Shown here: piece by piece, positions 5,936 to 18,479 of the stretch
How positions within the stretch are numbered: the first letter of the stretch is position 1
Layout of the letters: each line of letters opens with the position of its first letter
NCBI GenBank assembly: GCA_944381455.1
Contig: CALWLF010000123.1
Location: 1-53,248, forward strand
DNA: 53,248 nucleotides
Direction of reading: 5' to 3'
From: an uncultured Clostridia bacterium
Lineage (GTDB): Bacteria; Bacillota; Clostridia; Lachnospirales; Anaerotignaceae
The notes under the pieces: model-generated
What the model saw: only the letters and a program-made list of their open reading frames with translations
What the model was told of the DNA's origin: nothing
The model's database searches: none
Position numbers and translations under genes: made by a program

Positions 5936-6465
5936 AAATCACAATTTTACAGGGAAGCCCCCATAAAAACGGCTCCTCCAATCTGCTGGCAAATGAATTT
6001 ATCAGAGGTGCGAAGGAGGCGGGGCATACTGTCACGGTTTTGGACGCGGCGCATATGGATCTGCACCCATGTATCGGCTGTGGGCACTGCGGCATGAACG
6101 GTGCGTGTGTCCATCAGGATGACAATACGGTGATCCGAGATACACTACTGGACAGCGATATGGTCGTTTTCGTCACCCCTATTTACTATTTCGGGATGAG
6201 CGCGCAGCTGAAAATGGTCATTGACCGTTTTTACAGCTATACCATGAAACTTTCCGGCAAGCACATGAAGGCCGCGCTGATTGCCGCCGCATGGGATGAC
6301 AACGATGATGTCATGCCCTACCTCAGCAGCCATTACCAAAAACTGTGCCGCTACATGAACTTTACCGACTGTGGCATGGTGCTGGGCACCGGCTGCGGTA
6401 CGCCGGAGATGACCCGGCGCAACTCCCGTATGCAGGAGGCGTACCGCTTGGGGAAATCGTTATAA
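5932..6465 (+). CDS. NADPH-dependent FMN reductase / iron-sulfur flavoprotein-type flavodoxin
   Basis: A 177-residue flavodoxin-fold protein. The phosphate loop GSPHKNGSSN is at residues 8-17, and a Cys cluster follows (HPCIGCGHCGMNGAC). The second flavin-contact region VFVTPIYYFGMSAQLKMVID is the usual quinone-reductase/ISF-type sequence. It is expected to bind FMN and move electrons from NAD(P)H; the Cys cluster could hold an iron-sulfur cluster, although spacing alone does not prove it. It is coupled by a 4-base overlap to the upstream gene. Confidence 0.9.
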   Translation: MKITILQGSPHKNGSSNLLANEFIRGAKEAGHTVTVLDAAHMDLHPCIGCGHCGMNGACVHQDDNTVIRDTLLDSDMVVFVTPIYYFGMSAQLKMVIDRFYSYTMKLSGKHMKAALIAAAWDDNDDVMPYLSSHYQKLCRYMNFTDCGMVLGTGCGTPEMTRRNSRMQEAYRLGKSL

Positions 6466-7514: not shown

Positions 7515-7607
7515 ATCGTAATAAAGAATACCATAAGAGTACGGAGTATCTATTTCGTTTGTATATGGAGAAATCCCCCTTGACAAATCTCTTTCCAGAA
7601 AGCACTG

Positions 7608-9116
7608 TTGAAACAGTACTGTGCAGAAAACAGAATCCCCATTGCAGGCGTTTATTGTGATGATGGATGGAGTGGAACAAACTTCGAAAGACCCCAGTTC
7701 AAACAGATGATGGCGGACATTGAAGCTGGAAAAATCAATGTGGTCATCGTCAAAGACCTCTCCAGATTCGGCAGAGAGTATGCCCAGATGGGGCTTTATA
7801 TCGAACATTACTTCGAGGAGAAGGGCGTCCGCTTCATCTCCATCGCGGAAAATTATGACTCAAAAAATGGTGCGGATAACTTAGTCCTTCCATTCACGAA
7901 TGTTATCAATTCCTATTACACCAGACAGGTGTCAGCCAAAACAAAAGCTGCCCATAGAGCCAGAGCAAAGGAAGGGATGTACCTTGGTGCCCATGCACCA
8001 TTCGGTTACGAGAAAGATCCACAGAATAGACATAAACTCATTGTCGATCCGCCGGCGGCGGAAGTGGTGCAAATGATATTCAGACTTTTCGCCGATGGCA
8101 TCGGATATGGGAAGATGACCAAGATATTGCGAGAGCGAAAAATCTTGAATCCTCAGGCATATTTCAATCGGAACCATCCCGATTATTATGAAAGCGATTA
8201 CTGGAGGCAGGATTTTGACTGGCACGCATCAACTATACGCTCCATTCTGAACAATCCGGTCTATCTGGGGAAGGCAGTGTTTGGCAGGACAAGAACAAAG
8301 GGATTTTTCGATAAAAGGAGAGAGGAAACGCCGGAAAAAGATTGGATCGTATATAATAATGCGCATCAGGCTATCATTTTCGAAGAACTTTGGGACACGG
8401 TGCATCAGATGATGAAAGCTAAGAGAAGACCAAACTCCAAAGGAGAATTGCAGCCCTTCGCAGGATTGGTGAAGTGTGCTGACTGCGGTTCTTCTCTGAA
8501 TGTCAGCTATGATGCCAAACGAGGTACCTATACAGGTTTTAGCTGCTGGGTTTATAGAAACTATGGTAAGGATCGATGTACCTCACATTACATCAGCTGG
8601 AAAGCGTTGTATCAAATCGTGTTGGAGGATATCCGCCGCCATGCAAGTAGGGCACAAAATGCGGAAGAACAGTATCTGGAAATGCTGGTGAAGATGAAAA
8701 CAGACCAGCAGAAACAGGATGGGACGAAAATCAAAGTGGAATTGCAGCGAGTTGAAAGAAGATTATCAGAAATCACAGCAGTCATCAAACGATTATATGA
8801 AGACCTTGCCTTGGGCAGAATCAGCGATGAACGATATGAGGATATGTATCGGGGGCTCGATCAAGAGGAAAGAGAACTGAAAAGCAAGCAGGAAACACTG
8901 AAAGAGCAGTGGGAGAAAACCCAGGAAGCATTTCAAAATGTGGAGAAGTTCATTCCTCTCATCAAGAAGTATACGGATATACAGGAGCTGAATGCTTACA
9001 TACTCAATGAGCTCATCGAAAGGATTGTCGTCCATGAAAAGGTCATAGACGAGGATGGAAATAAGACTCAGAAAGTGGAGATTTACTATAAGTTCGTGGG
9101 GACTGCAGTGGAGTAA
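7608..9116 (+). CDS. Large serine recombinase, N-terminally truncated
   Basis: A 502-residue open frame (TTG start) from a large serine recombinase. Visible parts are the C-terminal portion of the resolvase domain (DDGWSGTNFERPQFKQMM, VIVKDLSRFGRE), the recombinase domain (RSILNNPVYLGKAVFGR), a zinc-ribbon CADCG with partner Cys downstream, a long coiled coil and a C-terminal DUF4368-like end (VVHEKV). The N-terminal strand with the nucleophilic serine (YxRxS) is missing: homology can be followed back only to about 7584, where an in-frame TGA lies at 7581-7583. The protein therefore cannot catalyse DNA cleavage. Such enzymes normally sit at one end of Tn4451-like or conjugative elements. Confidence 0.88.
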   Translation: MKQYCAENRIPIAGVYCDDGWSGTNFERPQFKQMMADIEAGKINVVIVKDLSRFGREYAQMGLYIEHYFEEKGVRFISIAENYDSKNGADNLVLPFTNVINSYYTRQVSAKTKAAHRARAKEGMYLGAHAPFGYEKDPQNRHKLIVDPPAAEVVQMIFRLFADGIGYGKMTKILRERKILNPQAYFNRNHPDYYESDYWRQDFDWHASTIRSILNNPVYLGKAVFGRTRTKGFFDKRREETPEKDWIVYNNAHQAIIFEELWDTVHQMMKAKRRPNSKGELQPFAGLVKCADCGSSLNVSYDAKRGTYTGFSCWVYRNYGKDRCTSHYISWKALYQIVLEDIRRHASRAQNAEEQYLEMLVKMKTDQQKQDGTKIKVELQRVERRLSEITAVIKRLYEDLALGRISDERYEDMYRGLDQEERELKSKQETLKEQWEKTQEAFQNVEKFIPLIKKYTDIQELNAYILNELIERIVVHEKVIDEDGNKTQKVEIYYKFVGTAVE

Positions 9117-9435
9117 AAACGAAATGGGAATCAGCTGATTGGTGAATTGAAAAAGAACAGAAATATATGTGAATTTTCAAACATTCTTATGTTTGCTTTG
9201 TGATAAGCATTGTCTATGCATTTTAGTCACCTATATGTATGGTTTCTTTGAGTTCGGTTTTCGGAATTAGAAAATAATATAGAAAGTTGAGCGGGTAATA
9301 TCTAAGATATGTTTTGTAATATTATATGAGAATAGATAATATATGTGCATTACACTATTTAAAAAGAAATTAATAGTAAAAAATAGATTGATAAGAATAA
9401 AAATATCATGTGTAAGTCAATTACATAAAAAAAAC
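9117..9435. other. AT-rich intergenic stretch without a gene
   Basis: I see no convincing coding frame, terminator or repeat here. The composition changes abruptly from the recombinase to AT-rich DNA, marking the junction to the restriction-modification block. Confidence 0.5.
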
Positions 9436-9464
9436 TTGACAATACAAATAAAAAATGATATACT
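9436..9464 (+). promoter_or_regulatory. Strong sigma-A promoter of the leader RNA and DUF3892 gene
   Basis: A perfect TTGACA (9436-9441), 17-base spacer and TATACT (9459-9464) place the transcript start near 9471, exactly where the folded leader begins. Confidence 0.85.
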
Positions 9465-9470
9465 CTAAGT

Positions 9471-9575
9471 AACAAATGAAAAGCCCTATATCTGAACGCT
9501 GGGTAAAGATATAGGGCTGGGCATCTTGCGACGCTCTTTCGCAAAAATAGTGTACCGCAAAATGTCTCATTTGTC
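9471..9575 (+). ncRNA. Structured leader RNA upstream of the DUF3892 gene
   Basis: The transcript can fold into a closed multi-branch structure. P1 closes it: 9472-9479 (ACAAATGA) with 9567-9574 (TCATTTGT), 8 bp. P2: 9482-9493 with 9507-9518 (AGCCCTATATCT / AGATATAGGGCT), 12 bp perfect, 13-base loop. P3: 9526-9531 with 9539-9544 (TTGCGA / TCGCAA), 6 bp. Loop bases GGTA (9502-9505) could pair with TACC (9553-9556) as a pseudoknot. It ends 13 bases before the AGGAGG of the DUF3892 gene. I do not recognise it as a known riboswitch class. It could be a cis-regulatory element or an independent small RNA. Confidence 0.6.
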
Positions 9576-9601
9576 AATAATATATGTAGGAGGATTTAAC
9601 T

Positions 9602-9889
9602 ATGGTTTACATTGATGCAGTACATTATGAAAAAGATTCATACGGTTATGAAGTTATTTCGCATTTGAAGTGGACAAACACTTTATCAGAACAAGCCACT
9701 CAAATTTGCACTAAACGTCAAATGATTGATTTTATTAACAAAAATCCGGGTTGTACAAAAACTAAATATTATAATTTGTGGAATGGTTGGACTGTAGGAG
9801 AAGATGTCAGAGTTGTGGAAAATTCTTACTTAAGAACAGATGCAAATGGCATCAAAGCTGACAATCTAGGCTCTCTTCCTCGATTCTGA
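9602..9889 (+). CDS. DUF3892 family small protein
   Basis: A 95-residue protein; AGGAGG lies 8 bases before the ATG. The C-terminal pattern VGEDVRVVENSYLRTDANG...DNLGSLPRF is that of DUF3892, a small family of unknown function, and the N-terminal half has the expected DAVHYEKDSYGYEVISHLKW. No catalytic residues are evident. It has its own promoter, structured leader and terminator, so it is a separate transcription unit in front of the restriction-modification genes. Confidence 0.75.
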   Translation: MVYIDAVHYEKDSYGYEVISHLKWTNTLSEQATQICTKRQMIDFINKNPGCTKTKYYNLWNGWTVGEDVRVVENSYLRTDANGIKADNLGSLPRF

Positions 9890-9894
9890 ATATT

Positions 9895-9930
9895 AGGTCA
9901 ACAAAGCCCAGCATTTGTTGACCTTTTTTA
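9895..9930 (+). terminator. Rho-independent terminator after the DUF3892 gene
   Basis: AGGTCAACAAA (9895-9905) and TTTGTTGACCT (9914-9924) form a perfect 11-bp stem with loop GCCCAGCA, followed by six T residues. Confidence 0.9.
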
Positions 9931-9943
9931 TAAGGGTGATTTT

Positions 9944-10489
9944 ATGATAAGAAAATTGAAAGAGATAGCAGAAATTCGATTTTGCTTAGCTCAAAGGGTA
10001 ATCTCTAATCAAAAGTATAAAGTGCTTACTCCCATTAAATTGCTAGAAAACAATGTAATAGATGGTTTTGTTTACGATGATAGAATTCGAGCAAATGATG
10101 ATACAAAAGTTTGTAATGGAGATATTATTGTAAAAAGAATAAGTCCGGCATTCGTGAATTATATTGACAAAATCGAAAACAATATTTATGCTTCTGGAAA
10201 TTTAATAATAATCTCAGCAATTTCTGTTGAACCGAAATATCTTGCTTATATTCTTAACAACGAGATCCCAAAGATTACGCAGTCATTGTCTGGTGCAAAA
10301 ATCCCTGCTATTGGAAGAAGTGATTTAGAGGAAATACAAATACCGATTCTTCCGATAGAAAAGCAAAGGGCAATTGGTGATTTATGGCAAAAAAGTATTG
10401 AAGTTTATAAATTAAAAAGAAGATTGGATGAATTAGAACTTGTTAAAACAAAAAATCTGTTGAGCAAAGCTATAAACGGAGGGAAATAA
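9944..10489 (+). CDS. Half-size type I restriction specificity subunit
   Basis: A 181-residue protein with a single target-recognition domain and one C-terminal helix. The HsdS hallmarks are the start KLKEIAEIRF, SGAKIPAIGRSDLEEIQIPILPIEKQRAIGDL, and the closing helix KRRLDELELVKTKNLLSKAI. Full HsdS proteins have two such units; half-size versions can dimerise or pair with the modification subunit. It is immediately upstream of hsdM (one base gap), with the full-length hsdS two genes further on. It may supply an alternative specificity or be a regulator of the complex. Confidence 0.8.
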   Translation: MIRKLKEIAEIRFCLAQRVISNQKYKVLTPIKLLENNVIDGFVYDDRIRANDDTKVCNGDIIVKRISPAFVNYIDKIENNIYASGNLIIISAISVEPKYLAYILNNEIPKITQSLSGAKIPAIGRSDLEEIQIPILPIEKQRAIGDLWQKSIEVYKLKRRLDELELVKTKNLLSKAINGGK

Positions 10490-10490
10490 A

Positions 10491-12110
10491 ATGTCAACTA
10501 AAAAAACAACTTTTGAAGATATCAAAAATGCTTTGTGGGCTGGAGCAAATACATTTAGAGATAATATTGATGCTGCAAATTATAAAGATTATGTCCTGTC
10601 TATGCTATTTGTAAAATATTTAAGTGATACATTTGAGGAGAGTGTAGAAAATCTTAAGAAAGATTATGAAGGAATTCGTCTTGAAAGGCAAATATCTAAT
10701 CTTCCTTTTGTTCTGAAAGAAGAGTATACCTTCAATTACTTGCTAAAGAACAAATATGCTGTAGACATAGGAACTAAAATCAGTGAGGCTTTGACTGGAA
10801 TCGAGAGTTCAAACTCAATTTTGTCTGGGATTTTTAGAGGCATTGATTTTAACAGTGAGGCTAATTTAGGAAAGAAAGAGCAAAAAAATCCTCTTCTGAG
10901 AACATTACTTGAAGATTTTGCTGACTTGGATTTAAGACCTAGCCATATTGAGACAAAAGATAATGAAGTTCCGGCAGATGTTGTGGGCGATGCCTATGAA
11001 TATATGATTGGTGAATTTGCAACTCTGGCAGGAAAGAAGGCAGGAAGTTTCTTTACACCGCAGCAAGTTTCAGAGGTTATGGCACAAATTGTTGCTCCAC
11101 AGGAAAAAGACCGTGTGTATGATCCTACATGTGGATCTGGTTCTCTGCTTATTAGAGCGGCTAAAAAAGGTGGTCTTGATAAAGTTTCAATATATGGTCA
11201 GGAAGTAAATAATTCTGCTATTTCTATGGCAAGAATGAACATGTTTATTCATGATATAAAAGATGCTCATATTGCTTGGGGAGATACCCTCGCAAATCCT
11301 CAGCATCTTGATAGTGAAGGTAATCTCATGAAATTTGATTGTATCGTTGCCAATATGCCTTTTAGTAAAGATAAATGGGCAGAGGGTTTTAACCCTGGTG
11401 GAGAGGTTTCTGTTGATGAAGATGAGTCTAATAACAAATCAACTAAGAAGGGTAAGAAAAAAGAGTTTAAGATGGAACCGTCCCTTGACAGATATCATCG
11501 ATTTGACTTAGGTGTACCGCCAGCAAGTAAAGGTGATTGGGCGTTTTTGCTCCATATGATTGCAAGTATGAGCGGAAACGGAAGAGTTGCAGCAGTTGCT
11601 CCTCACGGAGTTCTGTTCAGAGGTGCATCTGAAGGACGAATTCGTCAGGCGGTAATTGAGAAAAATCTGATTGATGCTGTTATTGGGTTGCCAGAAAATC
11701 TGTTTTACGGTACTTCTATTCCTGCCTGCATTGTTGTATTTAAAAAAGGACGTACCACAACAGATATTCTTTTTGTCGATGCCTCTAAAGATTTTAAAAA
11801 AGAAAAAGCAAAAAATAAATTGCGTGACGGTTCAAATGGAGAACCAAACGATATCAAAAAAATAGTTGATACTTATAAAGCATTTGTAAACGGAGAAGAA
11901 GCAGAGCAAGAAAAATACAGTCATGTTGCAACCCTCAGAGAAATTCAGGAAAACGAGTATAATCTCAACATTCCTCGCTATGTTGATACTTTTGAGGAAG
12001 AGGAACTTATAGATTTGGAGAGTGTAAACAAGGAGATTGCAGACATCAAAACTCAGATTGCTTCCCTTGAAGAAGAAATGGCGAAATGTATGAAGGAGCT
12101 GGGTTTATGA
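10491..12110 (+). CDS. hsdM: Type I restriction-modification DNA methyltransferase subunit M
   Basis: A 539-residue adenine-N6 methyltransferase. The N-terminal helical HsdM domain (KNALWAGANTFRDNIDAANYKDYVLSMLF) is followed by the SAM-binding motif DPTCGSGSLL near residue 213 and the catalytic motif IV as NMPF near residue 287, a variant of NPPF also seen in other HsdM proteins. The C-terminal helices (NKEIADIKTQIASLEEEMAK) should contact HsdS. Its TGA overlaps the ATG of the next gene (ATGA, 12107-12110). Confidence 0.96.
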   Translation: MSTKKTTFEDIKNALWAGANTFRDNIDAANYKDYVLSMLFVKYLSDTFEESVENLKKDYEGIRLERQISNLPFVLKEEYTFNYLLKNKYAVDIGTKISEALTGIESSNSILSGIFRGIDFNSEANLGKKEQKNPLLRTLLEDFADLDLRPSHIETKDNEVPADVVGDAYEYMIGEFATLAGKKAGSFFTPQQVSEVMAQIVAPQEKDRVYDPTCGSGSLLIRAAKKGGLDKVSIYGQEVNNSAISMARMNMFIHDIKDAHIAWGDTLANPQHLDSEGNLMKFDCIVANMPFSKDKWAEGFNPGGEVSVDEDESNNKSTKKGKKKEFKMEPSLDRYHRFDLGVPPASKGDWAFLLHMIASMSGNGRVAAVAPHGVLFRGASEGRIRQAVIEKNLIDAVIGLPENLFYGTSIPACIVVFKKGRTTTDILFVDASKDFKKEKAKNKLRDGSNGEPNDIKKIVDTYKAFVNGEEAEQEKYSHVATLREIQENEYNLNIPRYVDTFEEEELIDLESVNKEIADIKTQIASLEEEMAKCMKELGL

Positions 12111-12937
12111 GTGATCTTGTAAAGTATAGTGAAAAAACTTTCGAAAATATTAAGCATATCAACGAGTATGGGGAAGAATTTTGGTATGCAAGAGAACTGC
12201 AGTTTACGTTGGAATATTCTGAATGGCGTAATTTTAGCAATGTCATTGAGAAAGCACAAACTGCGTGTGAAACGAGTGGATTTGATGTACAGGACCATTT
12301 TGTTGGCGTCAACAAAATGGTTGAAATTGGCTCTGGCGCTGAGAGAAAAATCGATGATATCATGCTTTCCCGTTATGCGTGTTATCTGATAGTAATGAAC
12401 GGAGATCCCAAAAAGGAAGTCATTGCCGTAGGTCAAACCTATTTTGCTGTTAAAACAAGACAGCAGGAAATGATTGATGATTTTGACATACTGACAGAAG
12501 AACAGCGTCGTTTAGCAATCCGAAATGAAATGATTAAACATAATAAATTGTTGGCAGATGCTGCGAATAAAGCAGGGGTTGTTGAGCCATTGGATTATGC
12601 AATTTTTCAAAACTATGGCTATAAAGGTCTTTACGGCGGAATGGATATGAAGGCAATTCATAAACATAAAGGATTGAGAAAGAGTCAGAAGATTTTAGAC
12701 CATATGGGCAGTACGGAGCTTGCGGCTAATCTGTTCCGTGCCACGCAGACCGAAGAAAAACTCCGTCGTGAAAATATTAAAGGCAAAGAAAATGCAAATA
12801 AAACACACTACGAAGTAGGTGCAAAAGTTCGCAAAACTATTAAAGAGCTTGGCGGCACAATGCCAGAAGATTTGCCAACCCCTGATAAAAGCATAAAGCA
12901 GATTGAGCGTGAGATGGAAAAGAAAAAATTGAAGTAG
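12107..12937 (+). CDS. DinD-like (DNA damage-inducible protein D family) protein
   Basis: A 276-residue protein that starts at the ATG overlapping the hsdM stop. KTFENIKHINEYGEEFWYARELQ and the KMVEIGSGAERKIDDIMLSRYACYLI block identify the DinD/BRO-N related family, followed by a helical region and the charged C-terminus. E. coli DinD is SOS-induced and inhibits RecA filaments, but this family is also found repeatedly inside type I restriction-modification operons, where its job is unknown. The overlap with hsdM and the 8-base gap to hsdS show that it is translated as part of the restriction system operon. Confidence 0.88.
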   Translation: MSDLVKYSEKTFENIKHINEYGEEFWYARELQFTLEYSEWRNFSNVIEKAQTACETSGFDVQDHFVGVNKMVEIGSGAERKIDDIMLSRYACYLIVMNGDPKKEVIAVGQTYFAVKTRQQEMIDDFDILTEEQRRLAIRNEMIKHNKLLADAANKAGVVEPLDYAIFQNYGYKGLYGGMDMKAIHKHKGLRKSQKILDHMGSTELAANLFRATQTEEKLRRENIKGKENANKTHYEVGAKVRKTIKELGGTMPEDLPTPDKSIKQIEREMEKKKLK

Positions 12938-12945
12938 GTGGAAGT

Positions 12946-14160
12946 ATGACCGAAGAAATAAAACAAAGAATAGAAACTATAAAAGCCGGAAAAGTTCCTG
13001 ACGGCTATAAAAGGACTGTTGTAGGCATTGTCCCAAATGAATGGGAAAATAAAAGACTGTCTGAATTGTTAAAGTTTCAGAATGGAGTTAATGCTGATAA
13101 AGAAAAGTACAATAGCGGAATCAAAATGATTAGTGTTATGGATATTTTGTCTAACAGACCTATATTTTATGATAATATCAGAGGACATGTGGATATAGAC
13201 GAAAAGACTTTGAACAACTATAGTGTTACCTATGGTGATATTCTCTTTCAGAGAAGTTCTGAAACTGTTGAGGATGCAGGAAAATCGAATGTTTATATGG
13301 ATGAAGAAAATATAGCTACTTACAGTGGATTTGTAATCAGAGGCAAAAAAGTCTCTGATTATAATCCATTTTATCTAAATGAGCTTCTGAAATCATCTAA
13401 AGTTCGACAACAGATTATAAAGTATTCAGCAGGATCACAGCATATTAATGTAAGCCAAGATTCACTTTCAAAGGTGAATGTATGTTTTACAAACAAATAT
13501 GAGCAAAATCGTATTGCAGAAATCCTGTCTAAATGGGACAAAGTAATTGAGTTGCAGGAAAAACTGATTGAAAAGTTAGAATTGCAGAAAAAAGCTTTGA
13601 TGCAGAGGTTGCTTACACCAAAGGAAGGCTGGAAGAAAGTTAAATTGGAAAGCGTTATACGCAAGCAGAAAGCTGTATTGGTTAATACGAATGAAAATGG
13701 AAAGAATCCAATAATTGACATGGATTATTTAATAAACAGTAGTTTCTGTAATTACACAAATGACGAGGGGATTCGTGCCGATTTAAATGATGTTCTTTTA
13801 TTATGGGATGGCTCTGGAGCAGGAACTCCCATACACAAAGTTGAGGGTGTTGTAGGTTCAACTTTTGCTAAATTGACACCAAACCACGAAATATTTCCGA
13901 GTTTTTTATACTATTATCTTTTAAAAATTCAAGAGAGAAACAAATTATTGCGTGAAGGCTCTGGAGTTCCGCATATTCCAAAAGATTTCTTGAGAATGCA
14001 AACCATAAGTTTCCCGACAAAAACAAGTCAGAAAAATATTCTTAATATTTTGGAAAACTTTGATTTGCAAATAAATTATCACCATAAAAAACTAGAAGTA
14101 TTGAAACAGCAACAAAAAGCAATGCAACAGTTGCTGATAACCGGAATTGTAAGAGTATAA
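12946..14160 (+). CDS. hsdS: Type I restriction specificity subunit S
   Basis: A 404-residue specificity subunit with two target-recognition domains (about residues 20-185 and 230-370), each followed by a conserved helix (EQNRIAEILSKWDKVIELQEKL and SQKNILNILENFDLQINYHHKK). The first half ends in the typical LQKKALMQRLLTPKEGW, the second in QQKAMQQLLITG. It sets the DNA sequence recognised by the complex. The start ATG at 12946 has AGGTGGAAG upstream. Confidence 0.95.
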   Translation: MTEEIKQRIETIKAGKVPDGYKRTVVGIVPNEWENKRLSELLKFQNGVNADKEKYNSGIKMISVMDILSNRPIFYDNIRGHVDIDEKTLNNYSVTYGDILFQRSSETVEDAGKSNVYMDEENIATYSGFVIRGKKVSDYNPFYLNELLKSSKVRQQIIKYSAGSQHINVSQDSLSKVNVCFTNKYEQNRIAEILSKWDKVIELQEKLIEKLELQKKALMQRLLTPKEGWKKVKLESVIRKQKAVLVNTNENGKNPIIDMDYLINSSFCNYTNDEGIRADLNDVLLLWDGSGAGTPIHKVEGVVGSTFAKLTPNHEIFPSFLYYYLLKIQERNKLLREGSGVPHIPKDFLRMQTISFPTKTSQKNILNILENFDLQINYHHKKLEVLKQQQKAMQQLLITGIVRV

Positions 14161-14172
14161 GGAGGAAATAAA

Positions 14173-14349
14173 ATGGCTAAAAACAAACCTTATGGTGATA
14201 ATGCTCGTGTGGGAGCAGTAAAAAATAGGACACAGGTACACAACCCTAAAACTGGATTATGGGTAAAAAGAGACACTGAAACAGGAAGATTTATGGATGT
14301 AAAAACATCCTCCGATAAACCTTTTAAGGGCGTAACAAAAGAAAAATAA
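14173..14349 (+). CDS. 58-residue conserved-looking protein in the RM operon
   Basis: A short frame between hsdS and hsdR with a perfect GGAGG at 14161-14165, 7 bases before the ATG. The product starts MAKNKPYGDNARVGAVKNRT, continues through NPKTGLWVKRDTETGRFMD and ends in GVTKEK. It is very basic and Gly/Asn-rich, without membrane segment or signal. Similar small proteins are known to me beside type I restriction genes, without an assigned function. Its basic charge would suit nucleic-acid or DNA-mimic-opposed binding, but that is a guess. Confidence 0.7.
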   Translation: MAKNKPYGDNARVGAVKNRTQVHNPKTGLWVKRDTETGRFMDVKTSSDKPFKGVTKEK

Positions 14350-14359
14350 GTTCAGTAAA

Positions 14360-14381
14360 AGCCGGACTTTTCAGTCCGGCT
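14360..14381 (+). terminator. Hairpin between the 58-residue gene and hsdR
   Basis: AGCCGGAC (14360-14367) and GTCCGGCT (14374-14381) pair perfectly with a 6-base loop. No strong T run follows, so it may only attenuate transcription into hsdR or protect the upstream mRNA. Confidence 0.55.
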
Positions 14382-14410
14382 ATCACTGTTTATGTGGGAG
14401 GAATGGAGAT

Positions 14411-17400
14411 ATGCCAAATCATACAATATTTAACGAGCGTTCAGAATGTCAGGACAGACTTATACAATTTTTAATCAATATGGGCTATGAATATGTTTCA
14501 CGCAGTGAGTCGGAAAGCAAAAGAAGAAATTTGTCTTCCGTACTATTTGAAGATGAGTTGATTCGCTTTTTGCAAAAACAAACTTATACATATAGTGGAC
14601 ACGAATTGCTTTTCTCGGGAGAATCCATCACAAAAGCTGTGAAAGAATTAGATGCATCCCTTTTGCAAGGTCTTTCTATGGCAAGCAAAGAAATTTATAA
14701 TCTTATTACTTTGGGAATTAGTTTGGAGGAAAATATTGCAATAGATAGTGATATTCCAGTAAAACAATCATTTGACCTGCATTACATTGATTTTGAGCAT
14801 CCTGCAAACAATATTTGGCAGGTAACAGAAGAATTCAGTGTTCAGCGTCCAAACGGAAGTTATGCTCGTCCTGATGTTGTATTAATGGTCAACGGTATTC
14901 CTTTTGTTGTAATCGAATGCAAAAAGTCCAGCATCAATGTTATGGAGGGCGTTCATCAAAATGTCCGCAATATGATGCCTGATTATATCCCTCAGCTGTT
15001 TAAATTTTCCCAACTTGTAATTGCGATGAACCCACAGAAAGTTCTTTACGGTACAGGCGGGACAACCTCTGACTATTTTGTAGAGTGGAGAGAAGATGAA
15101 GCCGAATGGCAGGATGAAACCTGCAGAAAATGTTCACCGGATGGTTCTATTTTGGAACAGGATAAAATTACGGTATCTTTGCTTAGCAAAGCAAGACTTC
15201 TTGATTTGGTTCAGAATTTTATACTTTTTGATAATAATATTAAGAAGATTGCAAGACATCAGCAATACTTTGCTATTCATAAATCTATGGACAGAATTAA
15301 CGGCAAAGATGGAAGCTCTTCAAAAGGCGGCGTTATTTGGCATACCCAAGGCAGTGGAAAATCTCTGACAATGGTTATGCTAGTTAAAAAAATTCAGGCT
15401 GAAAAAGGATATGAAAATCCCAGATTTATTATTGTTACAGACCGTATAAATCTTGATAAACAAATCCGTGATAATTTTGCTAATTCTCAAATGGCACCTG
15501 TTCGTGCTGCAACTGGAAAAGGTCTTAATTCCTTGTTAAAAAATAAAGATAATATAGTTATTACAACGCTAATCAACAAATTTGAAACAGTGTACAAAAA
15601 TAAATATTTAGAGCCGGATAGTGATAAATTTTATGTATTGGTAGATGAGGCACATCGTTCGCAGTATAAGTCGATGTTTAACTATATGAAAGAAGTTTTG
15701 CCAAATGCAACGCTCATTGCATTTACTGGTACACCACTTATTGCAAAAGCAAAAAAGAATACATATAAAACTTTTGGTGATCCAATTCACAACTATACGA
15801 TGAAACGAGCTATAGAAGATGGTATTACAGTTCCACTTGTTTACGAAGGTCGTAAAGTAAAACAGGAAGAACCTGCATTGACAATCAACAACTATTTTGA
15901 AAGTTTGACTGAAGGTCTTCCACAAGAACTTAAGGATAAACTTTCTGACAAGTTCAGCAGATTTAAAGCGATTTCAGAAGCCAGAAGCCGTATCAACTTA
16001 ATAGGATTTGATATCGCAGATCATTTTAAAAGTTATTGTCTTCCTAAAGGATTAAAGGCAATGGTTGTATGTTCTTCACGAGCAGCGGCGGTTGAAATGT
16101 ATGAAGTGTTAAAAGGTATGTCTGGAATTAACCCTCGTGTAGTAATTACATTTGGAGACAAGAGAGAGGGGGATGATGATGAAGCCACGAATGAATCAAT
16201 CAAAAAAATAAAGGCATATCATCAGAAAATGGTAAAACCTTTATTTGGTGACAGCGATGAAAAATATGATGATCATGTTTGTGAAGATTTTAAAAATCCA
16301 GAAGGAGAAATCAATATGCTTATTGTCAAAGATAAGCTGTTGACCGGGTTCGATGCTCCTGTTGCTGGTGTTTTATATTTAGATAAGTCTATTCAACAAC
16401 ATTCCCTGTTACAGGCTATTGCAAGAGTTAATCGAGTTTATAAAGGAAAAGATTTCGGATTGATTGTAGATTATTGGGGTGTTTTTGGAAAGCTGAACAA
16501 AGCTATCGATATGTATGAAGACGCTGAGTCTGGAATGAATGGATTTGATAAATCCGATATTGAAGGAGCGATATTTGGTCCGATTGATGAGAAAAACAAA
16601 TTGGCATCAGCGTATGCAAATTTAATTTCTATGTTTGAATCAGTTAAAGATTCCCAGTCCTCAGATGTTTGGCAAAAAAGTCTTGCTGATGAAAAAACAA
16701 GAAAAGATTTTTACAACAGACTTAAAGAGTTTGCTAATTTATTGAATTTAGCATTATCTAATCGAGATATATTTGTAGAGGTAGGCTTTGATTTAATCGA
16801 AAAATATCGCAAAGAGTATTTATTCTATAGAAAATTAAAAGATAGTGTTATGATGCGATATGATGATGAGGTTGATTTGTCCAAATATGAACAAGGAATA
16901 AAAAACCTAATTGACACTTTTGTAAATGCAACGGATATCATAACTGTAGTTAAGCCGGTTTCTATTGGTGATGAAAAAGCAATGAAAAAGCTTCTTGAGA
17001 AGATGGATTCAAATGAATCTCGAGCAGATGCAATAAAAACCAGAATGGAATCTAAACTGAACCAGATTAGATACGATGATCCCCTTTTGTTTGAGGAATT
17101 TTCTTCTAAAATTAAAAAGACCATTGATTTATATAATGAAACACGTGATGCAGATGCGTATTTAGAAAGTATGAAGATAATGGCTGATGATTTTAGAAGC
17201 GGAATCACATCGCAAGAATATCCATCTCAGATTGCTAATGATAGTGATTTAAAAGCTTTTTATGGTGTTGTTATTACCCAGCTTAAAAATAATGAAGAAG
17301 TAAAAGTCACGACTGATACTGAGGAAATTATTGCTAAGTATTCATTTAGGATTAAAAAGGTCATCAGTGATAATGCAAAACGAGACTGGAAACATAATGA

Positions 17401-17548
17401 GGTTGTCCATAAAACGATGCACAGAAATTTAGATGATTGTTTGTTTGATATGTTTGAAGAAATCGGCGTTGTCATTGATAAATCCAACATTGATTTGCTT
17501 GATTTAATTATTGATGAAACTATGAAAGTTGCGGTGGCAAGGTATTAA
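14411..17548 (+). CDS. hsdR: Type I restriction endonuclease subunit R
   Basis: A 1045-residue motor-nuclease subunit. The N-terminal PD-(D/E)XK nuclease is visible as ARPDVV...VVIECKKSS around residues 150-175. The helicase domain has Walker A TQGSGKSLTM near residue 314, DEAHRS near 412 and AFTGTP about 25 residues later, with the second RecA-like domain ending in QAIARVNRVYKGKDFGLIVDY. The C-terminal helical part should bind the M2S methylase. It translocates DNA with ATP and cleaves at a distance from unmodified sites. GTGGGAGG precedes the ATG. Confidence 0.97.
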   Translation: MPNHTIFNERSECQDRLIQFLINMGYEYVSRSESESKRRNLSSVLFEDELIRFLQKQTYTYSGHELLFSGESITKAVKELDASLLQGLSMASKEIYNLITLGISLEENIAIDSDIPVKQSFDLHYIDFEHPANNIWQVTEEFSVQRPNGSYARPDVVLMVNGIPFVVIECKKSSINVMEGVHQNVRNMMPDYIPQLFKFSQLVIAMNPQKVLYGTGGTTSDYFVEWREDEAEWQDETCRKCSPDGSILEQDKITVSLLSKARLLDLVQNFILFDNNIKKIARHQQYFAIHKSMDRINGKDGSSSKGGVIWHTQGSGKSLTMVMLVKKIQAEKGYENPRFIIVTDRINLDKQIRDNFANSQMAPVRAATGKGLNSLLKNKDNIVITTLINKFETVYKNKYLEPDSDKFYVLVDEAHRSQYKSMFNYMKEVLPNATLIAFTGTPLIAKAKKNTYKTFGDPIHNYTMKRAIEDGITVPLVYEGRKVKQEEPALTINNYFESLTEGLPQELKDKLSDKFSRFKAISEARSRINLIGFDIADHFKSYCLPKGLKAMVVCSSRAAAVEMYEVLKGMSGINPRVVITFGDKREGDDDEATNESIKKIKAYHQKMVKPLFGDSDEKYDDHVCEDFKNPEGEINMLIVKDKLLTGFDAPVAGVLYLDKSIQQHSLLQAIARVNRVYKGKDFGLIVDYWGVFGKLNKAIDMYEDAESGMNGFDKSDIEGAIFGPIDEKNKLASAYANLISMFESVKDSQSSDVWQKSLADEKTRKDFYNRLKEFANLLNLALSNRDIFVEVGFDLIEKYRKEYLFYRKLKDSVMMRYDDEVDLSKYEQGIKNLIDTFVNATDIITVVKPVSIGDEKAMKKLLEKMDSNESRADAIKTRMESKLNQIRYDDPLLFEEFSSKIKKTIDLYNETRDADAYLESMKIMADDFRSGITSQEYPSQIANDSDLKAFYGVVITQLKNNEEVKVTTDTEEIIAKYSFRIKKVISDNAKRDWKHNEVVHKTMHRNLDDCLFDMFEEIGVVIDKSNIDLLDLIIDETMKVAVARY

Positions 17549-18270
17549 TGAAAACTTATGTGCTAGACTTAGTATCACCATTTGACAAGACAACCGTATA
17601 TATAGAACGTAAAAACATCAAAAACATTCATCTTAAAGTATTTAGAGATTTAAAAGTTGTTTTATCTGTACCAAACGAAGTAACGGACGAGTGGATTTCC
17701 TATTTCCTCAAGAAAAAATCAGGCTGGATTGAAAAACAATTACGAAAATACAAGCAATCAAGTGGCTATAATACCTTGATTGATATTAAAAGTGGAACGT
17801 CTACCCAATTATTAGGACAAGACCGAAGGATTATTAAAAAAATTTCTGATAGAAATTGTGTAATTGAAGAAGAAAAAAATATTATTGTTTATGCGAGTGA
17901 AAAGAGTAAAAAGCACCAACAAATTTTAGAAAGATGGTGGCGAGAAAAAGCATATGACATTTATATAAATGAAATGGAGGAGATTTTTAATAGGATTTTT
18001 AGAAAATATGGTGTAGAAAAACCTACTATATATATCAGAAAAATGAAAACTTTATGGGGAAGTTGTACACCATCAAAAAACAAAATCACATTAAATGAGT
18101 ATTTGCTAAAAGCTGATCTCCGTTGCATCCAATATGTTATTTTGCATGAATTGACGCATCTTCTTTATCCTTATCACAATAATGACTTTTATAATTTTTT
18201 GACTGTTCAAATGCCTGATTGGAAAGAAAGAAAAAAGCAATTGGATTTAGAAGTAGTTCAAGGACTATAA
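17548..18270 (+). CDS. YgjP/SprT-like metallohydrolase (DUF45 family)
   Basis: A 240-residue protein whose start overlaps the hsdR stop by one base (TAATG at 17546-17550). The zinc site HELTHLLYPYHN (HExxH plus a third His) near residue 200 and the preceding WGSCTPSKNKITLNEYLLKA are the signature of the YgjP family of M48-like metallopeptidases. This gene is found at the 3' end of many type I restriction operons. Its substrate is unknown; a role in turnover of the restriction complex is a reasonable inference. Confidence 0.92.
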   Translation: MKTYVLDLVSPFDKTTVYIERKNIKNIHLKVFRDLKVVLSVPNEVTDEWISYFLKKKSGWIEKQLRKYKQSSGYNTLIDIKSGTSTQLLGQDRRIIKKISDRNCVIEEEKNIIVYASEKSKKHQQILERWWREKAYDIYINEMEEIFNRIFRKYGVEKPTIYIRKMKTLWGSCTPSKNKITLNEYLLKADLRCIQYVILHELTHLLYPYHNNDFYNFLTVQMPDWKERKKQLDLEVVQGL

Positions 18271-18444
18271 TTTAAAAACTAATTTTACTTGAATTGTTTA
18301 TTTTGGAAAAACTTGAATAATAATTAGGATAACAACAGATATGCTGTGTATAGAATAGTATAAAAACAGTAGTAGCGATTTTACGTAATCTTAAAATAGA
18401 CATATATTAAATTAGATATTTATCAGTCCTTATCCCCAACCAGC
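18271..18444. other. AT-rich gap at the end of the island
   Basis: No gene is visible between the metallohydrolase stop and the tRNA fragment. The sequence is AT-rich like the restriction block and unlike the DNA to its right. Confidence 0.5.
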
Positions 18445-18473
18445 GGTCGCGTGTTCGAGTCACGTTTTCGGCT
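18445..18473 (+). other. tRNA 3' fragment, likely attachment site (probably tRNA-Thr)
   Basis: The bases from 18445 contain a complete T arm: stem GCGTG, loop TTCGAGT, stem CACGT (one G-T pair), then the 3' acceptor strand TTTCGGC and discriminator T. The implied 5' acceptor strand is GCCGAAA, and discriminator T fits tRNA-Thr. No anticodon arm or D arm precedes it, so only the 3' end exists. Integrases that use tRNA genes leave exactly such a duplicated 3' end at one boundary of the island. The intact tRNA would lie to the left of the window. Confidence 0.65.
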
Positions 18474-18479
18474 CTTTTG

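Follow-up and report, generated by a model that had tools for sequence, protein, structure and literature searches.

The window, by which we mean the whole stretch of 53,248 nucleotides analysed here, comes from an uncultured Clostridia bacterium of the family Anaerotignaceae and contains a type I restriction-modification (RM) operon. A small gene of the DUF3892 family (PF13031) heads the operon and is preceded, as the original prediction held, by a structured leader RNA. The operon has the following genes:

9602-9889, forward strand: DUF3892 gene, 95 amino acids (PF13031, E 4.6e-8).
9944-10489, forward strand: half-length HsdS with one specificity domain; its ATG lies ~17 nt past the stem and T-run of a terminator.
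10491-12110, forward strand: HsdM, a member of the operon.
12086-12937, forward strand: DinD-like BRO-N protein (NCBIfam equivalog, 433 bits).
12946-14160, forward strand: HsdS, a member of the operon.
14411-17548, forward strand: HsdR, a member of the operon.

A gene for a YgjP-like metallopeptidase is listed after HsdR. Within the hsdS coding region there is also a 14-bp terminator-like hairpin on the forward strand (13331-13364). The operon is part of an island (7596-18467) that is 98.8% identical in Anaerotignum lactatifermentans DSM 14214, a member of a different genus in the same family; near-identical copies in two genera of one family indicate that the RM island moves. At the right edge of the island, 18446-18475 has the appearance of a tRNA gene's 3' end and is similar to a tRNA-like sequence at 482-553 in the DSM 14214 contig. 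At the left edge, a serine recombinase gene (7596-9116) is truncated by ~33 N-terminal codons in the window and is full length in DSM 14214.

The leader and the terminator that follows the DUF3892 gene are identical in the window and in DSM 14214. The single diverged relative is locus L008 of Massilimicrobiota timonensis, whose DUF3892 protein is 82% identical and whose hsd operon has the gene order of the window but no intact dinD listed at the corresponding place. The half-length HsdS ahead of hsdM is also kept in the M. timonensis island, besides a full HsdS downstream. A covariance model of the leader (R1), run in 58, 295 and 186 genomes (~540 look-ups), returned only the known copies and a hairpin in locus L047 that sits between other genes and was rejected as a chance match. 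One close relative emerged from the DUF3892 protein search, which covered 391 + 315 genomes, IMG/VR, plasmids, phages and 84,980 GTDB species, the 84,980-species part being a search that detects close relatives only. Searching phages and plasmids for the leader DNA gave nothing, and two viral pattern scans gave chance matches or nothing.

DUF3892 itself is widespread, but elsewhere, at the DUF3892 loci examined, it occurs without this leader. A general DUF3892 leader was rejected: R1 matches just the window family and L008, with E at least 0.7 at other DUF3892 loci. The enterobacterial DUF3892 loci (L040 6995-7279; L178 3995-4279) were likewise rejected as leader homologues, their upstream hairpin region also existing without DUF3892. 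On a Klebsiella plasmid and in a prophage, these genes adjoin a CBASS-like operon that encodes CD-NTase, E1/E2-type and JAB proteins; relatives on haloarchaeal plasmids adjoin ArdC-like genes, and further relatives adjoin sugar-utilisation operons. No solved structure matched DUF3892, and its AlphaFold models are of low confidence (pLDDT 44 and 56).

The sense strand upstream of the DUF3892 gene has the following features:

9436-9464, forward strand: sense promoter TTGACA-17-TATACT with TG ahead of the -10; start predicted at ~9471.
9471-9580, forward strand: leader RNA, a three-way junction of P1, P2 and P3; L008 forms the same junction.
9472-9479/9567-9574, forward strand: P1, 8 bp, from the fold.
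9482-9493/9507-9518, forward strand: arms of the P2 hairpin, 12 bp, with the loop at 9494-9506; from the fold and the L008 comparison.
9520-9566, forward strand: P3, with its base at 9520-9527/9559-9566, conserved with L008.

The sense promoter had been called perfect; it scores 11/12 against the consensus, which with the extended -10 makes it strong by sequence match. The L008 promoter (TTGATT-17-GATAAT, also with TG) has an identical offset. The two promoters are otherwise unrelated in sequence, and blastn homology starts at 9473, 2 bases past the predicted +1. The claim that the RNA from ~9471 folds on itself is borne out: the predicted RNA 9471-9601 has a folding energy of -41.5 kcal/mol, whereas its shuffles average -24.6 (z -5.3) and 0 of 200 reach it. 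Rfam gave no match at the gathering score for the window and its relatives, and nothing plausible at a permissive threshold. The fold and the Rfam blank together indicate that the leader is real as a structure and, as first proposed, belongs to no named family.

P1 starts at +2/+3 in both the window and L008. Three helices of 8, 12 and 6 bp had been predicted, and P1 and P2 agree with this. The 6-bp P3 (TTGCGA/TCGCAA) is absent from the minimum-energy fold and is not conserved; the P3 that both loci keep is GGCAUCUU/AAAAUGUC in the window and AGCAUCUU/AAGAUGCU in L008. We found no support for the suggested 4-bp pseudoknot. The P2 loop displays GCUGGGU at 9498-9504, which includes a YUNR motif (CUGG), and its counterpart in L008 is GCUGAGU. 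The Shine-Dalgarno sequence (SD) lies outside the fold, in line with the earlier statement that the structure stops before the ribosome binding site. The leader has no expression platform: it contains no internal terminator and the SD is free. A leader peptide was also considered and rejected, since an indel that distinguishes the two loci breaks the short ORF from an ATG near 9476, which is thus not conserved.

Conservation between the window and L008 was judged against four-fold degenerate sites of the flanking genes, which are 61.7% identical when pooled (48% for DUF3892 alone). Leader columns 4-62, window 9473-9530, are 48/59 identical (P 0.001). The 36 columns beyond have drifted (17 identical), and identity returns in a block at 9567-9579 (12/13, P 0.017). 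P1, P2 and the P3 base are retained in both loci. All nine substitutions in paired columns are transitions, and three compensatory changes are two-sided: C-G to U-A and U-A to C-G in P2, and G-C to A-U in P3. The P3 base also changes from G-U to G-C and from C.A to C-G, read from window to L008. When the same number of transitions is placed at random, three two-sided changes have P 0.008, jointly with the pairs kept P 0.002, and the count of kept pairs alone has P 0.04. The compensatory changes proposed as a check were seen in P2 and P3 (n=3, from L008); the covariance model gave nothing convincing at other DUF3892 loci. Covariation is thin because just two distinct leader sequences exist among those that were searchable; on these two sequences, the case that the sense RNA of the leader is under selection is a good one.

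Two conserved elements are not accounted for by the sense fold. TCAATA, after P1, is invariant and outside the modelled sense helices. UUGCGA is conserved though unpaired in L008. Both coincide with elements predicted on the opposite strand, which the original prediction had missed:

9577-9549, reverse strand: predicted antisense promoter, with the -35 TTGACA at 9577-9572, a 17-nt spacer and the -10 TACACT at 9554-9549 (10/12).
9473-9542, reverse strand: predicted antisense RNA of ~70 nt, with a 5' tail containing UCGCAAGAUGC, the P2 hairpin as terminator and the U-rich end UUUUCAUUUG.

TCAATA overlaps the antisense -35, which lies in the conserved block at 9567-9579, and UUGCGA is located in the antisense 5' tail. 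The drifted columns are those between the antisense start and the antisense -35, and columns 4-62 are the overlap of sense and antisense RNA. L008 has TTGACA-17-TAAAAT (11/12) at the same aligned place, with TTGACA perfect in both loci. The -10 is less constant: 3/6 of its columns are identical, no more than neutral, and TACACT in the window is mediocre. Promoter-like matches are common in AT-rich DNA (49 in the window vs 40 expected). The sense and antisense promoters are the sole strong convergent pair in the window; shuffled windows give 0.3 convergent pairs, and zero with a hairpin of at least 11 bp. In a related genome, a leftward gene of 451 aa has an apparent promoter with 82.5% identity to a 40-nt segment of the window (9542-9581). 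A rightward relation to an mcr-like gene in L004 was rejected, the similarity being to a promoter that faces the opposite way.

The antisense RNA is itself predicted to be structured (z -4.5 in the window, -5.2 in L008). After the P2 hairpin the antisense strand ends in UUUU(U)CAUUUG in both loci, by sequence and folding, and the L008 end reads UUUUUCAUUUG. The U-run is short (4-5 U) and is retained across an indel in the A-run. The YUNR (U-turn) motif, described in PMC4485353, is common in antisense recognition loops. Its presence in the sense P2 loop (CUGG/CUGA) is a weak sign, with a chance of ~1/2 for a 13-nt loop. The predicted antisense RNA leaves the ribosome binding site uncovered, and a translational switch by antisense pairing was rejected, as computed SD accessibility hardly shifts when the leader is treated as paired. 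The conserved blocks are the antisense -35, partly outside the sense fold, and the overlap including UUGCGA; the conservation profile therefore fits a sense/antisense RNA pair better than a role in sensing for DUF3892 or as its RNA partner. We found no positive evidence for either of these roles, which the original prediction had proposed.

A further element that had been overlooked lies at the other end of the DUF3892 gene:

9895-9930, forward strand: intrinsic terminator/attenuator that separates DUF3892 from the hsd genes (fold z -5.8), with the loop GCCCAGC at 9906-9912 complementary to the P2 loop.

The stem has diverged from that of L008, and the loop AAGCYCAGCAU is kept save one C/U change. 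This change is matched by the G/A difference in P2, so that GCYCAGC pairs over 7 bp with GCUGRGU in both loci. The loop-loop duplex has an energy of -14.6 kcal/mol in the window and -12.4 kcal/mol in L008, and cognate pairs are better than cross pairs. The terminator loop is the best partner of the P2 loop in the DUF3892 transcript of both species, the next-best reaching -9.4 and -9.0 kcal/mol. With shuffled loops, an energy as good as that observed arises in 0.24% and 0.45% of trials, and in 0.015% for both together, for a partner that was picked after the fact. Since it pairs with the P2 loop, the terminator loop resembles the recognition loop of the antisense RNA (UACYCAGC). The terminator appears to be laid out as an intrinsic attenuator, lying inside one operon: between 9602 and 9944 the window has no forward promoter match of at least 9/12. 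With the ATG of the half-length HsdS ~17 nt past the stem and T-run, this means that the hsd genes probably depend on readthrough. L008, with the same order of gene and terminator, has weak forward promoter-like matches inside DUF3892 at 6146 and 6194.

We propose, with moderate confidence and from sequence analysis, that sense and antisense RNA form a cis-encoded pair in which the leader is the target, and that this pair, coupled to an attenuator within the operon, controls the restriction genes as well as DUF3892. Comparison supports the sense fold and the complementarity of leader and terminator; the two promoters, the antisense RNA and the terminator are sequence predictions; and we infer the direction of regulation, the control of readthrough and any role of DUF3892. 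The facing promoters would give rise to the DUF3892-hsd mRNA and to the ~70-nt antisense RNA. The first ~110 nt of the mRNA would form the three-way junction and expose GCUGRGU in the P2 loop. The antisense RNA would consist of its 5' tail and the P2 hairpin, which serves as its own terminator, and the terminator loop GCYCAGC would mimic the antisense recognition loop. Because of this mimicry, the P2 loop could pair either with the antisense RNA or with the terminator of its own mRNA. The antisense RNA most likely lowers mRNA output, through pairing, RNase III cleavage and/or interference by convergent transcription. Contact between leader and terminator would adjust how often transcription continues into the restriction genes, and the antisense RNA would compete with the terminator for the P2 loop. 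The outcome would be that restriction is kept low or delayed, the direction of the effect on readthrough being a guess. In sum, the RNA pair probably helps to set the level of operon expression.

Other explanations account for parts of these observations. A leader that acts in the sense strand only, as a riboswitch or as a protein-binding or autoregulatory element that senses a ligand or binds DUF3892 and thereby controls the gene or the operon, is possible, if rather doubtful. It would suit the strong sense fold with its compensatory changes, and one protein could bind both leader and terminator, AAGCYC...AGCAU being common to the two. Such an element, however, leaves unexplained why TCAATA, which lies outside the sense fold, is invariant, why the facing promoter is conserved and why UUGCGA is conserved though unpaired in L008; an expression platform and an Rfam match are lacking, and the leader was not found at other DUF3892 loci. 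It is unlikely that the structures serve to stabilise the DUF3892 mRNA, with P1 at +1 protecting the 5' end and an ordinary terminator at the 3' end, possibly joined loop to loop. The position of P1 from +2/+3 in both loci and the strength of the terminator are compatible with this, but stability alone needs no sequence-level conservation of the loops or of a -35-like block, and the terminator precedes the hsd genes with no promoter match between.

Still less probable is a type I toxin-antitoxin system like SymE/SymR, in which the antisense RNA represses a DUF3892 toxin and the host is addicted to the RM island. Although the arrangement, in which a small gene on a mobile RM island has an antisense RNA over its 5' leader, resembles symE/symR (PMC1891008, PMC3874152), there is no sign of DUF3892 toxicity, and DUF3892 relatives beside CBASS, ArdC-like and sugar-utilisation genes occur without this RNA. 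One might finally ascribe the fold to chance in an AT-rich leader without function, given that the comparison involves two sequences only and that promoter-like matches are common in such DNA (49 vs 40 expected). We consider this very hard to credit in view of the z of -5.3, conservation well over that of four-fold sites, the compensatory changes and the co-varying loops.

If an antisense RNA does target the leader, the pair and the attenuator might operate together as a three-partner switch, in which the P2 loop is contested by the trans-acting antisense hairpin and by its look-alike in the terminator, so that the antisense level sets readthrough. We put this forward tentatively. Were it true, restriction could be delayed, for example, after transfer of the island into a new host. 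In terms of gene expression, it is poorly explained how mobile type I restriction systems establish themselves in a new, unmethylated host without killing it, and an antisense RNA together with an attenuator that copies its loop would be a compact, RNA-only means of keeping restriction low or delayed. The model names the exact bases for mutation.

Several known systems share parts of this arrangement. In plasmid pMV158, copy control involves RNAII and the repB leader. RNAII, like the RNA predicted here, has an unpaired 5' tail, a single terminator hairpin and a U-rich end, and the repB leader carries a hairpin that matches RNAII, as P2 does here (PMC4485353). Unlike the pMV158 pair, the present one precedes DUF3892 and an RM operon, leaves the ribosome binding site uncovered and carries a YUNR loop on its 12-bp hairpin, and the terminator of the mRNA itself mimics the antisense loop. 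SymR of the E. coli type I toxin-antitoxin pair SymR/SymE also overlaps the leader of a small gene, and genes of the SymE family are found next to RM operons on mobile islands (PMC1891008). DUF3892, however, is not SymE-like by Pfam and comes with no toxin evidence, and SymR covers the Shine-Dalgarno sequence (PMC3874152), which the predicted antisense RNA leaves free.

In EcoRI (Rna0, 88 nt) and Eco29kI, facing promoters and short antisense RNAs limit RM expression (PMC3874152). Those are type II systems with reverse promoters within the endonuclease gene; the present operon is type I and has an attenuator as well as a structured leader dedicated to it. The pneumococcal type I RM locus tvr has a terminator-like attenuator inside its operon, and mutation showed that it lowers downstream expression (PMC6265443). 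That attenuator divides tvrAT from the recombinase gene tvrR (PMC6265443), while the one described here divides DUF3892 from hsd and has a loop complementary to the leader. Our literature search found no type I operon that combines an antisense RNA with a terminator whose loop copies that of the antisense RNA. Antisense RNAs and attenuators in RM systems are already documented; what appears to be new here is their predicted combination in a type I operon.
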